NCBI RefSeq assembly: GCF_003589925.1
Contig: NZ_CP032382.1
Location: 5,642,001-5,706,000, forward strand
Source: Chryseolinea soli
GTDB lineage: Bacteria; Bacteroidota; Bacteroidia; Cytophagales; Cyclobacteriaceae
Reading direction: 5' to 3'
Length of the DNA: 64,000 nt
Shown: positions 58,963-64,000 of the stretch, one piece after another
Layout of the letters: each line of letters starts with the position of its first letter
How positions within the stretch are numbered: the stretch's first letter is position 1
Translations under genes and position numbers: made by a program
The notes under the pieces: generated by a model
The model's database searches: none
What the model was told of the DNA's origin: nothing
The model's input: only the letters and a program-made list of their open reading frames with translations

Positions 58963-61365
58963 TTATTTTAGAAAATTACGCTTGACATAGTTGTAAAACC
59001 TGCTCTCAAATTCGCTTTCGCTCAGACCAAACGTTTTTTTAACATCGCCATTCTCGGAAAGCAAATTCAGTAAGCCTTCCTCTTCCCAGGTAGTCTCTAT
59101 AAATTCGATCAGGAGAAAGCCAACATCGTATATCTTGCCATTCCCGTCCACATCATTCAGCTCTTTCAGGGTCGGGTATGGTCCCGTGCGCAGATATTCA
59201 AATTTTTCAGGAGCATAAAATTGTTGTGCCACATAGCTGGCCATGCCTTCGAAGAGCCAGGCTGCGTCGTCGGTTGTCTCAAACTGGCTGATATTGGACG
59301 CGCTCATGCGGGCGATGAATTGATAGTGCACACAATGCGCAAACTCGTGGACTGCGGCTTTAAGCAGGCTTTCACGTGTGTGATAGCTTCCGGGGTGACC
59401 GGGAGAAACCATTTTGAATAATTCCTCATCCACCGCCATGCCAACGTCGCTGTCGGGTGCTCCTGTACGCCCGATCGCAAAATGATAGTTCTCCACACCG
59501 GGATAGACCTCCACGTGAATCGGTCGTGGCAAACTGTCGATACCAAAACTACCCAGCACCCGCGCATAATTTTTTTCCACAACGGAGGCTACGTCTTGAG
59601 CACTCGCCGAGTCCCCGGCAAGGAAATGGATCACAAAGTGTTTGGTCGGGAGCGTACGGTTAAGGGGCGGATATTTTGGCGCGAAGAGTTTGTTGTCATC
59701 TCCAGGATGAGAAAAGACTGCCCTAGGAGAATTCGAGGTGCTCGCCGTTACTTGTTGGCACAATATCGAGTCTCGCACCAGGAGGGCATGATCGCTTTTG
59801 TAAGGTTGATACCGTCTCCAGAAATTCATGTCAAGCCCGTATTTTTTATTTTTCCGTGCGATGGTCTCAAACGCATTTTCCATCGTAGCATCCGGCGGAA
59901 CGGCATTGATCCCATCCCAAAATGCGAACTGATAAAGATATTCCCAGTTGCGTTGATCTTTCGGGCTAAGCACTTCGGAACTGTTGAAGGGTTTAACATT
60001 CCCGGTCTGAATGTCGGTCACGACGACGTCGCCGGTCAAAAGGATGTCGGCAAAGAAATCCGTTTTTGGTTTCACCAAGCTGGCATTCCAGCTCACGCCA
60101 ATGCTGGCGGGATACCATTTGCCTTGCCAGGCCTTGTAGGTGGTGATGGACTTTTGACCAAGAACGGCGCAACGGGAGTAGCCAAAAAGGGCCGCCGCTG
60201 CTTTCGAAGTTCCAAAGAATTTTGCGTGCTTTATGCCCTTGGGGCTAAGTTCCGTTTCGGTGCGGACAAACGCGAGGCTTTCCATGTCGATATAGAATTT
60301 TCCTTTGTACAGTGCTTTGTTTTTGTAGGCATCTTTTTGATCGAATGAAATGACATACACTTCCCGGTCATCCAGCAGGCTTGTTCCTAGCAGTTCGAAG
60401 TCGTGTTGTTTTAGAAAATTTGACCCGGGAAATTCGTCGCTATTATTTTGTGTTTTCAGATCGGCAGAAAAGATGATGTCTGTGCCGAGGCCAATTTCGA
60501 ATCCGGTCCAACGGATAAAGGTCTGCAAGATGCTCTGAATGGCATGGAAGTCTTTCACCCGTCGTCCTTTCACGACCTTGATCTGCCGCTCTGCCGAAGG
60601 GGCAGCGGATTCGCGGTACGCCTGGTAAACTGTCTCACTCGCTTCTACTGGATCACCGTCCTGGACGGCGAGGTCCCGTATAAAGTACGTATATTTAACT
60701 TTTCCCGTATCGTAGTTCTCCTGGATGCGGGCAATGGCTTCCTCGAGAATGGAATGCCCGGTTTTTGAAGTGACCACAACCGTGTTGAGCTGCGTTGTCT
60801 CCGGCTCCAACCGTATCAGCAACGAATTTTCATCATTTGATACAGAGAGATGATGTGACCGGTAGCCAACATACGACACGGTTATTTTGTTGCTGCGATG
60901 CTGTGCCGGGATATGTAAAACGAACGCTCCATCGTCATTGGTGGCCACACCCAGACTGGTTTGATCGAGCCGTATGGATGCCAGGGGTAGGGGAGTTCCA
61001 GAGCGGTTGTCCAGAACCTTTCCATCTACCACGATATCGCTATCTGCGTTGTTTTTGTTTCTCAGTACAATCTGTTCGCCCACCATCTTGTATTCAACGT
61101 TCGCCTGTTTGAAGATTTTCTCCAGGGCATCATTCAAACGAACCTGTTCGACGGAAAGCGTTATCTTTTTATTCAGTCCAACCCGTTCCCGGCTATAGGA
61201 AAATTTTAGATCATACTGCTCGCCCAATTCCGAAAGCACGCGCTCAAAGGGGACATTCTGAAAGGAAATAGAAATTTCCCTGTTGAGGTCCTGGGCCACC
61301 AGGCTGGCCCATAACAGGATTTGAAATGATACGACGACCAGGAGTGTTCTCATTGTTCTTCGCAA
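58963..61365 (-). CDS. STN / carboxypeptidase-regulatory domain protein with C-terminal gluzincin peptidase
   Basis: 800 residues with a signal peptide (to ~25, LVAQ). Next is an STN domain (~28-105, ISFQNVPFERVLSELGEQYDLKF), the module that lets TonB receptors signal to FecR. Then comes a CarboxypepD_reg-like beta-sandwich (~113-195), a region like the N-terminal part of DUF5686 proteins (~200-470), and a zinc-peptidase domain with H673-E-F-A-H677 and third ligand E706 (WLFEGMA). There is no TonB plug or beta-barrel. It overlaps fecR by 16 bp. It occupies the place of a SusC/FecA-type receptor in the sigma/anti-sigma operon. An ATG at 61353 is an alternative start. Confidence 0.82.
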   Translation of the reverse strand: MRRTMRTLLVVVSFQILLWASLVAQDLNREISISFQNVPFERVLSELGEQYDLKFSYSRERVGLNKKITLSVEQVRLNDALEKIFKQANVEYKMVGEQIVLRNKNNADSDIVVDGKVLDNRSGTPLPLASIRLDQTSLGVATNDDGAFVLHIPAQHRSNKITVSYVGYRSHHLSVSNDENSLLIRLEPETTQLNTVVVTSKTGHSILEEAIARIQENYDTGKVKYTYFIRDLAVQDGDPVEASETVYQAYRESAAPSAERQIKVVKGRRVKDFHAIQSILQTFIRWTGFEIGLGTDIIFSADLKTQNNSDEFPGSNFLKQHDFELLGTSLLDDREVYVISFDQKDAYKNKALYKGKFYIDMESLAFVRTETELSPKGIKHAKFFGTSKAAAALFGYSRCAVLGQKSITTYKAWQGKWYPASIGVSWNASLVKPKTDFFADILLTGDVVVTDIQTGNVKPFNSSEVLSPKDQRNWEYLYQFAFWDGINAVPPDATMENAFETIARKNKKYGLDMNFWRRYQPYKSDHALLVRDSILCQQVTASTSNSPRAVFSHPGDDNKLFAPKYPPLNRTLPTKHFVIHFLAGDSASAQDVASVVEKNYARVLGSFGIDSLPRPIHVEVYPGVENYHFAIGRTGAPDSDVGMAVDEELFKMVSPGHPGSYHTRESLLKAAVHEFAHCVHYQFIARMSASNISQFETTDDAAWLFEGMASYVAQQFYAPEKFEYLRTGPYPTLKELNDVDGNGKIYDVGFLLIEFIETTWEEEGLLNLLSENGDVKKTFGLSESEFESRFYNYVKRNFLK

Positions 61366-62336
61366 TTTTGCCCCGATAAAATATACTTTCCGTCCTGGAA
61401 GGAATGGCGAATGTGCAGACTATAGTCGATCACGTCGAGAACCTCTTCGGCGGTAGCGTTTTGAAAGGTTGCTTTGAAGTGGCAATGGAGCAGCACCGGA
61501 TCTTCGGCTTCGAACGGCGCATGGAAGTAATGTTCCAGATCACGAAGGACATCTTGCATGGCGGTGTCTTCAAACACAAGCTGCCGCGTTTTCCATGCGT
61601 TGGCGTTCGGATTTGATGCCATGGTTTCAACCTGATAGCGCCGTAAATCGAAACGCGCGCCTTGCCCCTGTTGTACATCAACTTTTTGAGTTGCCCCGAA
61701 ATGAGCACGTCCATGTGTGACGTCGAGCGCTATGATCTTTTCGTTATCATAACTTCTCAGGTTAAACGCGGTACCCACTACCGTTGTGGAAACTTTTCCG
61801 GTGTGCACTATAAATGGCCTTGACGTATCGCTGTGCACTTCAAAATAAGCTTCTCCTTTTAACCAAACATTTCTTTGCCGTTGCTGAAAGTTGTTGGCGT
61901 ATTGCAGTTCCGTCATTTCATTTATCCACACCACCGTGCTGTCCGGCAGAACGATCCGGGTTTGCTCTCCGGCCTTTGTTCTCACGGTATGTATGCTCCT
62001 CGCGTTTTTCTCTGCCAGAAAATACCAACCCAAACCAAGCGCAACAATAACGACGGCAGCTATTCGAAACAGCAGGCGGAAATGGATGGCTTTCGTCGCT
62101 GGCTTATCCATCCAGAGTGACTCCACCGGGTTGACAAAGGCTGCGCTAGGCTCTTCTTCTTTTTTAGTTTTAAAATAAGTGAATTGTGCCTGCCCGGGGT
62201 CGGATAATGTATGGATAGGGGAACCGTTGTAATGGGCGAAAAGAGTCTCTTCTTCCTCCAACGAGGTTTCACCACGGTAATATTTCGAGATCAGATCGTC
62301 CAGCTGTTCTTTATTCATGGCCGCGATGTTTTTCAT
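61350..62336 (-). CDS. FecR-family anti-sigma factor
   Basis: 328-residue single-pass inner-membrane protein. The cytoplasmic N-terminus is about 85 residues, the membrane helix ~88-108 (IAAVVIVALGLGWYF), and the periplasmic FecR domain includes VRTKAGEQTRIVLPDSTVVWINE and VWLKGEAYFEV. The C-terminal DUF4974-like part (FEDTAMQDVLRDLEHYF) is the STN-interacting domain in this family. It overlaps both neighbours, so the three genes form one operon. The ATG at 62318 is an alternative start with a smaller overlap. Confidence 0.93.
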   Translation of the reverse strand: MKNIAAMNKEQLDDLISKYYRGETSLEEEETLFAHYNGSPIHTLSDPGQAQFTYFKTKKEEEPSAAFVNPVESLWMDKPATKAIHFRLLFRIAAVVIVALGLGWYFLAEKNARSIHTVRTKAGEQTRIVLPDSTVVWINEMTELQYANNFQQRQRNVWLKGEAYFEVHSDTSRPFIVHTGKVSTTVVGTAFNLRSYDNEKIIALDVTHGRAHFGATQKVDVQQGQGARFDLRRYQVETMASNPNANAWKTRQLVFEDTAMQDVLRDLEHYFHAPFEAEDPVLLHCHFKATFQNATAEEVLDVIDYSLHIRHSFQDGKYILSGQNCEEQ

Positions 62337-62811
62337 ATTGTTGACGGAGCGTTATCCGTGCCCGCGACAAAGTAACGCGCACGTGATCCACACGCATTCC
62401 GGTTACTTCGGCGATTTCATTTATTTCAAGTCCTTCAATGCTTCGTAAATGAATAACCGCGCGCTGAAGTTCGGGCAGTTTTTTCACCAGGTGTTCCAGA
62501 TACGCCACCGCTTCGCGAGCCTCCAACTGACCGTGGAGATTGACGTCAGCGGCGATCGTTACGAGTTCGGCATCCAGCATGTCGCGTTTCGCGCTTTTCA
62601 ATTTGTCGAGACATTGGTTGCGCGTCATTTGCAGGGCGTAGGCCTTCAGGTTCACCACTGCGCCCAGGGACGCTCTTTTTGTCCATAGCTTCAGAAAGAT
62701 CTCTTGCACACAATCTTCCGCGTCCTGGGCATTGGCCAGCAGCGATTTGGCAAACCGGTACAAGGCACCTTTTAACGGCAGAACGTTGTTTTTGAATTCT
62801 TCTGAATGCAT
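62311..62811 (-). CDS. ECF-type RNA polymerase sigma factor
   Basis: 166 residues from the ATG at 62811; the frame above it is not supported. Region 2 includes ANAQDAEDCVQEIFLKLW. Region 4 includes LPELQRAVIHLRSIEGLEINEIAEVTGMRVDHVRVTLSRAR. This is the Bacteroidota FecI-like group paired with FecR. It is the first gene of the operon and probably activates its own promoter, as related systems do. The target set cannot be derived from this window. Confidence 0.93.
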   Translation of the reverse strand: MHSEEFKNNVLPLKGALYRFAKSLLANAQDAEDCVQEIFLKLWTKRASLGAVVNLKAYALQMTRNQCLDKLKSAKRDMLDAELVTIAADVNLHGQLEAREAVAYLEHLVKKLPELQRAVIHLRSIEGLEINEIAEVTGMRVDHVRVTLSRARITLRQQYEKHRGHE

Positions 62812-62935
62812 CCGGGTAGTAGACGGTGAAAATCGAAAAACATAACAGGAAGAAACGTATTTTTTCAGGATTGCCAAGCGGGCGCTGGCAAGCGGAAACG
62901 GGACGAATTGCAGCCCTGGTGAAAAAGGGCTGACC

Positions 62936-64000
62936 TCAAGGTTGAAACATGATCACCGTGTTTGGCCCGGGATGTTCCTTCACCACTTTCTTATTCTCCG
63001 AAGGTGTCCATGGCTGCTCGCCAAGTCCAGCAGGATCGGTGTAGGCGCCCAACAAACTAAACGTATCGATCACAAACGGAACGCCTTCCGCACCCAGCGG
63101 CGAGTTTCGATCCGCCACGTGAAAGTGCAAGTGGGGACCGGTGGTCTGACCGGTGAAGCCAATGGCGGCGATCACATCGCCTTTCCTTACGCGTTGGCCT
63201 GACTTCACGGTGATGCTACCCGGTTTAAGATGTTCGTAGAATACGACCCGGTTGTTGTCGATGGCGATGGCAATATAATTCCCCGTGGCTCTCGACGAAG
63301 GATAGTCGGGGTGTGCCGACAAGGTGAGGCTCTCCATAAAATCGATGCGGGTAGCCACCACCACGCCATCGCTGGCGGCCAGCACGGGTGCGCTGTAGCC
63401 ATACCAATTTCGCGTCGAGTCGCTGTTGCCGTTCGAGAAATGTCCTTGTTGGTCGGGCATGATGAAGTCGATGGCAAAGCGGCCGGGGATGTGTTGTTCG
63501 CCGTCGGTGGTAAACATCACGCGGCGGTGCCCGCGTTCCCAGGAGGGCTCATAAATGGCCACCCAAGGCCCGCCCCGCAACGGCATGCCTAGCACTACCG
63601 GTGAGGTTTTCGAGCGTTGAATTTTGCCACCCTGGAGCGTGTAGGTTCCTTTCGGTTGGCCGTCCACAGCCACAACGTCAAGTTGGTGGAGAAGGTGGAC
63701 GCCGCCATCGGTCTGGGGCAGGACAATCTCCAGGTAAATAACACCGGAGGCGTCGGGGTTCAATACGCCTTTTTTCTCTTTGCCGTCTGCGTCTTCGTTG
63801 TGAAAACGGTGTTTCAAATCCTCTTCGTTAAAGGAAGCCACAACGGAGTGGTCACTGGAATTGATCACTTTCAAGGCCTTCAGGGCCAACGAATCACGAA
63901 CCTGGCTCACGATCCGAAGTTCATAGTAGGCCACCCGTTTTCCGTCGATCACGGTGGGCTCGGGTGTCCAGAGCACGTTCAGATCGGCCACCGGATGTTG
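62936..64000 (-). CDS. M23-family peptidase, 5' end missing
   Basis: The gene enters from the right edge: the frame stays open to 64000, so the N-terminus (and any signal) is missing and the GTG at 63991 is not a real start. An N-terminal Ig-like part (~350-residue fragment, first half) is followed by a LytM/M23 domain with GPHLHFHVAD (HxH), VVFYEHLKPGSITVKSGQRV and GDVIAAIGFTG. The usual first-ligand motif H-x3-D is replaced by GRFAIDF, with Arg where His is expected. It may be a degenerate or atypical endopeptidase of the cell envelope. Confidence 0.8.
   Translation of the reverse strand, partial: QHPVADLNVLWTPEPTVIDGKRVAYYELRIVSQVRDSLALKALKVINSSDHSVVASFNEEDLKHRFHNEDADGKEKKGVLNPDASGVIYLEIVLPQTDGGVHLLHQLDVVAVDGQPKGTYTLQGGKIQRSKTSPVVLGMPLRGGPWVAIYEPSWERGHRRVMFTTDGEQHIPGRFAIDFIMPDQQGHFSNGNSDSTRNWYGYSAPVLAASDGVVVATRIDFMESLTLSAHPDYPSSRATGNYIAIAIDNNRVVFYEHLKPGSITVKSGQRVRKGDVIAAIGFTGQTTGPHLHFHVADRNSPLGAEGVPFVIDTFSLLGAYTDPAGLGEQPWTPSENKKVVKEHPGPNTVIMFQP

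Follow-up and report, generated by a model that had tools for sequence, protein, structure and literature searches.

The window analysed here is a 64,000-nucleotide stretch of the Chryseolinea soli genome (contig NZ_CP032382.1, positions 5,642,001 to 5,706,000), near one end of which three overlapping open reading frames (ORFs), as read from the stretch, form a single minus-strand operon encoding an extracytoplasmic function (ECF) sigma factor, a FecR anti-sigma factor and a third protein that combines an STN domain, a CarboxypepD_reg-like domain (CarbD), a LolA-like domain and a zinc peptidase domain. The features of the operon are listed below; residue numbers of the domains in the third protein refer to an 800-residue form read from the first TTG (61365-58963).

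62311..62811, minus strand: ECF sigma factor gene, 166 amino acids, NCBIfam NF058625 (GFO_1088 / PG0214 family)
61350..62336, minus strand: fecR anti-sigma gene, 328 amino acids, FecR domain at residues 117-210 and FecR_C at 253-319
62016..62072, minus strand: the only transmembrane segment predicted in FecR, residues 89-107 (hydropathy)
58963..61353, minus strand: third gene, STN-CarbD-LolA-like-gluzincin, 796 amino acids, ATGA overlap with the fecR stop
61057..61278, minus strand: STN domain, residues 30-103
60796..61035, minus strand: CarboxypepD_reg-like (transthyretin-like) domain, residues 111-190
59986..60750, minus strand: LolA/RseB-like half-barrel, residues 206-460, predicted fold
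58966..59670, minus strand: gluzincin peptidase domain, residues 566-800, predicted M9 collagenase-like fold
59335..59349, minus strand: HExxH zinc motif HEFAH, H673-H677, invariant in 23/23 rows
59248..59250, minus strand: E706, invariant in 23/23 rows

Domain organization of the operon products

The sigma factor contains sigma-70 regions 2 and 4 (Pfam) and scores 183.9 bits against NF058625 (cut-off 130), its TIGR02985 score being below the cut-off. Its gene overlaps fecR by 26 nt, and the Pfam matches of the FecR protein are the FecR and FecR_C models only, the RseA/MucA family not being matched.

The third protein carries a signal-like hydrophobic segment at its N-terminus, the only hydrophobic segment that it has, and is predicted to be secreted and periplasmic. 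Its Pfam matches are STN, FecR_C and CarboxypepD_reg-like. A preliminary description of this DNA had proposed that STN is carried here by something other than a TonB receptor, the STN and carboxypeptidase-regulatory domains having been kept in a third, overlapping gene, and the Pfam matches and the ATGA overlap bear this out. The Pfam scan shows neither plug nor barrel, and the predicted structure has no barrel, also within residues 200-650; an overlooked TonB barrel was rejected on these grounds. The absence of plug and barrel from the middle of the protein was thus correctly described, but a LolA/RseB-like half-barrel predicted at residues 206-460 had been missed: in fold searches the predicted structure of this region resembles LolA/LolB and RseB/MucB, the comparisons covering the families among the matches listed, so that others could also match. 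A profile of the middle domain gave 0 matches to solved structures, and a whole-protein profile compared by sequence with the PDB gave only SusC-type and PilQ matches. LolA, LolB, RseB and MucB all bind lipids, and two of them act as guards of other anti-sigma factors.

Among the matches listed, M9 collagenase peptidase domains come closest to the predicted C-terminal fold, with an identity of 13-17%, and the Pfam Peptidase_M9 model scores 14.2 bits, missing its cut-off of 26. Residues 566-800 are peptidase-like, and TolA is not among the fold matches listed, although unlisted families could match. H673, E674, H677 and E706, the last of which we take to be the third zinc ligand expected of gluzincins, are all unchanged across a 23-row alignment, and the C-terminal gluzincin noted previously looks intact. 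Stand-alone gluzincin relatives of about 250-390 residues also occur (L042, L043, L044, L122-L124, L134-L140 and others), with HExxH in 26/26 and a pattern for the later glutamate matched in 23/26; no sigma factor or FecR was found in five wider stretches around such genes (L042, L144-L147).

The end of fecR reads GAACAATGAG, which makes ATG 61353, within the ATGA overlap, the most likely start of the third gene, giving 796 residues. The methionine in this column is the first residue in 21 of the 22 other alignment rows, and the 22nd, supplied with extra upstream codons from the genome G040 (see below), has a methionine in the same column too. A short conserved element precedes the operon:

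62819..62851, minus strand: 33-nt block immediately preceding the sigma factor ATG, matched in Chryseolinea serpens

This block is identical in C. serpens except for one C/T position, within an intergenic region that has otherwise diverged, and among 174 loci it is present in these two genomes only; a shorter form of it, derived from this very site, occurs once in the window, at the site itself. It is a possible ECF promoter, which might be read by the operon's own sigma factor. An M23 peptidase gene lying upstream (62936-63991) was considered as a fourth member of the operon, which is not supported: C. serpens keeps this gene upstream, but of three genes of more than 200 residues seen there in G040, the two scanned are by their matches a UvrD-type helicase and a transposase, both on the operon strand. 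Within the stretches viewed, no receptor gene adjoins the operon.

Conservation of the operon and a sister family without the peptidase

About 5.8 billion proteins were searched by shared words, and scoring of the 7994 candidates with the most words in common gave 31 proteins at E<=1e-10. Twenty-two, including the window's own protein, span at least 95% of the query, two are shorter pieces, three are proteins of about 510 residues aligned over 52-63%, and four are receptor-length proteins with a plug domain. Among whole genomes, the full protein is present in 3/59 relatives, 2/295 of the family, 2/390 of the order and 1/395 of the phylum, in four overlapping draws that each count the window's own genome. 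The distinct genomes are three, namely the window's own, C. serpens (74% identity) and G040 (38%), a genome of another family. All three have their genes in the order sigma-fecR-third gene, in agreement with the conservation in relatives anticipated earlier, and their sigma factors form one clade (100/99), as do their FecRs (96/88). The operon is conserved but rare, and its occurrence in G040 led to rejection of a single-genus oddity.

A sister family of about 510 residues combines STN, CarbD and LolA-like domains but lacks the peptidase. One of its members, used as query, retrieved 181 protein clusters at E<=1e-20; in the best 120 of these 181, at lenient thresholds, the LolA-like domain was found in 120/120, an STN match in 110/120 and the peptidase in 0/120. 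The source names include Parabacteroides, Phocaeicola, Tannerellaceae, Culturomica and Microbacter. Six matches in 395 genomes of the class start before residue 42 and reach the end of the LolA-like domain, and in five of these six loci the sister STN protein adjoins its own sigma factor and FecR. These five (L141, L142, L143, L169 and L170; at least 40% identity, one being the query itself) have, on one strand, the order CarbD-LolA-like, sigma, FecR, STN-CarbD-LolA-like, and their sigma factors are all of the TIGR02985 type; the sixth (L171, 21%) has no sigma factor or FecR within 10.5 kb.

It had been suggested that proteolysis or peptide sensing could be the input or output of the sigma factor. 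The gluzincin was rightly noted, but proteolysis is probably not the core input, because peptidase-less STN-CarbD-LolA-like proteins adjoin a sigma factor and FecR in the same way, and the peptidase as a common core is not supported. Since the sister type lacks the protease and appears to have been separately assembled, the LolA-like domain, rather than the protease, would be the shared replacement for the barrel; the peptidase, seen in Chryseolinea-type systems only, is best taken as a lineage-specific addition.

Separate assembly was evaluated with trees of 37 of 38 loci (L056, which has no STN, was dropped) comprising 36 FecR, 30 sigma and 36 STN rows, the others being missing or cut by the stretch ends. 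The STN tree, with 94 columns, has few strong branches. Among LolA-like domains, the one in the window falls, with weak support (83/55), beside the beta-lactamase-type fusions of its own order, and those of the sister family fall beside CarbD-LolA-like proteins of Bacteroidia (92/99). Forcing together the eight operon-borne STN fusions (three peptidase-bearing and five sister clusters, with the orphan L171 left out) costs 35.9 log-likelihood units, with a p value of 0.006 in the approximately unbiased (AU) test. The LolA-like tree, the differing sigma types and the separate lie of the sigma and FecR clades of the two systems suggest that STN was joined to this kind of domain twice independently, and a single origin of the STN-LolA-like fusions is not favoured on these grounds; module exchange could, on the other hand, produce the same tree picture.

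Other C-terminal parts are found on CarbD-LolA-like proteins that lack STN: a beta-lactamase-type serine hydrolase in 6/6 scanned members of one clade and, elsewhere, an M1 peptidase or a sub-threshold DUF1349. Loci L056-L059, L069-L071 and L074 display this scaffold joined to differing enzymes, as a modular platform in the window's order.

The window's own genome has 23 fecR loci (PF04773). Comparison of coordinates with plug matches shows that 18 of them are closely followed by a plug gene in the same orientation. At one further locus the partner has 888 residues and is counted as receptor-like because it aligns end to end, at 35% identity, with a receptor-like G040 protein in which the plug is sub-threshold. 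The remaining four are the operon studied here and three with no adjacent TonB receptor, namely a 641-residue STN-CarbD protein with a glycine-rich repeat (by eye), a 393-residue STN protein and a fecR with no adjoining STN gene. STN proteins adjoining a sigma factor and FecR at L052 (641 residues), L063 (578) and L066 (505) run on into repeats of the G-x-Q-x-AGL-x-N type, read by eye, and constitute a further class of barrel-less FecR partner. L054 is a sigma-fecR pair with no STN partner and an acyltransferase gene next to it. At L116 (3033045-3033551 of the genome), the only other sigma factor of this genome above the NF058625 cut-off is followed by a 166-residue protein whose match covers no more than the beginning of the FecR profile. 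In G040, a receptor-like protein with no neighbouring fecR (L060:985-3684) has an STN domain that groups with that of the operon (94/83), and it might share the operon's FecR.

Proposed mechanism and alternative readings

The operon is tentatively read, at somewhat less than even probability, as a cell-surface signalling variant whose receptor has been replaced by a periplasmic STN-LolA-like protein that guards FecR, the peptidase being a later addition. The STN domain would dock on FecR at the C-terminal domain, which is STN-like, and shield FecR from degradation by periplasmic S41 and intramembrane M50 proteases, of which the genome has five and two matches, respectively. Binding of a lipidic or acylated envelope ligand by the LolA/RseB-like domain would alter or free the STN contact, upon which FecR could be cut and the sigma factor released, while the collagenase-like zinc peptidase may act on an envelope substrate or trim components of the complex. 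A wider and somewhat unlikely version is that Bacteroidota have at least twice joined STN docking to an RseB-like lipid sensor, enabling envelope-lipid sensing via FecR, and that Chryseolinea and one other lineage added a zinc protease that may itself cut FecR.

In the sister systems, the Pfam STN score is below the cut-off in 5/5 partners, the STN calls there resting on a custom profile with scores of 12 to 31 bits, and FecR_C does not reach the cut-off in any of the five FecRs, in one of which it is absent; the likelihood of both readings was slightly lowered for this reason. The same observation raised that of an alternative, which is nevertheless considered unlikely, in which the third protein serves chiefly as output, being a periplasmic hydrolase under control of the sigma factor and feeding back on FecR through its STN, much as a TonB receptor reports its own abundance. 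Its gene is the last in the operon and CarbD-LolA-like scaffolds elsewhere bear interchangeable hydrolases (beta-lactamase-type, M1), but retention of STN in the full-length relatives argues for a signalling contact.

It is rather improbable that the zinc peptidase is itself the site-1 protease of FecR, delivered by STN and gated by the LolA-like domain. The invariant peptidase site, its fusion to a docking domain and the operon conserved in 3/3 genomes are in line with such a function, whereas sister systems have the same core with no peptidase and the genome already has S41 and M50 proteases. Least probable is an adaptor that informs FecR about the status of a separate receptor in the outer membrane, for which the STN grouping of the L060 protein of G040 could be cited, since no receptor adjoins the operon in the stretches viewed and the STN trees are based on 94 columns.

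The guarding of FecR by a periplasmic STN-LolA-like protein would imply that inputs other than nutrient uptake can set a sigma switch of this kind. If true, a class of Bacteroidota systems detaches cell-surface signalling from transport and ties it to envelope sensing, and a function is suggested for a large family, named by its domains only in the records examined, whose sister branch takes in gut genera such as Parabacteroides.

Comparison with known systems

In the open-licence PMC literature, no paper was found combining all of the terms sought. The sister proteins correspond to the NCBI name 'STN and carboxypeptidase regulatory-like domain-containing protein', given to one Parabacteroides record, other members being named carboxypeptidase-like regulatory; in the literature searched, this NCBI name occurs in one paper. 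They share the STN-CarbD-LolA-like core and adjoin a sigma factor and FecR, but differ from the third protein in having no peptidase and a TIGR02985 rather than an NF058625 sigma factor. In P. merdae, the available part of one study reports 35 genes changed by sialic acid, with NQ542_RS07340 (CarbD) and NQ542_RS07355 (STN and CarbD), which are separated by three locus-tag steps, both down (PMC12893687). From the gene order of the five sister clusters, NQ542_RS07345 and NQ542_RS07350 are putatively a sigma factor and FecR, and these P. merdae genes putative members of the sister family.

With M9 collagenases the third protein has in common the gluzincin fold, HExxH and the downstream glutamate; it differs in that the Pfam scan shows none of the accessory domains of collagenases. 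The RseB-RseA and MucB-MucA pairs also tie a periplasmic protein with a LolA-like fold to an anti-sigma factor, and a LolA-like half-barrel resembling the N-terminal one of RseB/MucB is, as a predicted fold, present in the third protein. In the operon, however, the anti-sigma factor is FecR and not RseA, contact is expected via STN, and CarbD and the peptidase are added. The part of the literature available describes MucB as having a LolA-like N-terminal domain and protecting MucA from AlgW, with lipids antagonizing the binding (PMC7400510), and the STN domain of Pseudomonas FoxA as binding the anti-sigma C-terminal domain without ligand and shielding it against proteolysis (PMC11637429).

Barrel-less STN partners have a precedent in VreA of the Pseudomonas aeruginosa VreI-VreR-VreA (PUMA3) system, described in the accessible part of its report as mostly soluble (PMC2729926). 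VreA is of 23 kDa and has a TolA/TonB-like C-terminal domain, the third protein being peptidase-like at this end; the part cited mentions no LolA-like domain or peptidase, and vreR, unlike the operon's fecR, seems to be a separate transcription unit (PMC2729926). Nothing on VreA or STN was found in the part of PMC9249621 available.

In its known form, cell-surface signalling reports on TonB-dependent uptake. The operon has in common with FecI-FecR-FecA its layout, an ECF sigma factor adjoining a single-span membrane FecR with FecR_C, and a partner with an N-terminal STN; FecA continues into a plug and barrel, and the partner here into a LolA-like domain and a peptidase instead. The operon resembles cell-surface signalling but, because the plug and barrel of a TonB receptor are missing, is strictly not a member of it. 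What is new relative to these systems is a transducer that lacks a barrel and has a predicted RseB-like domain, accompanied here by a collagenase-like protease.
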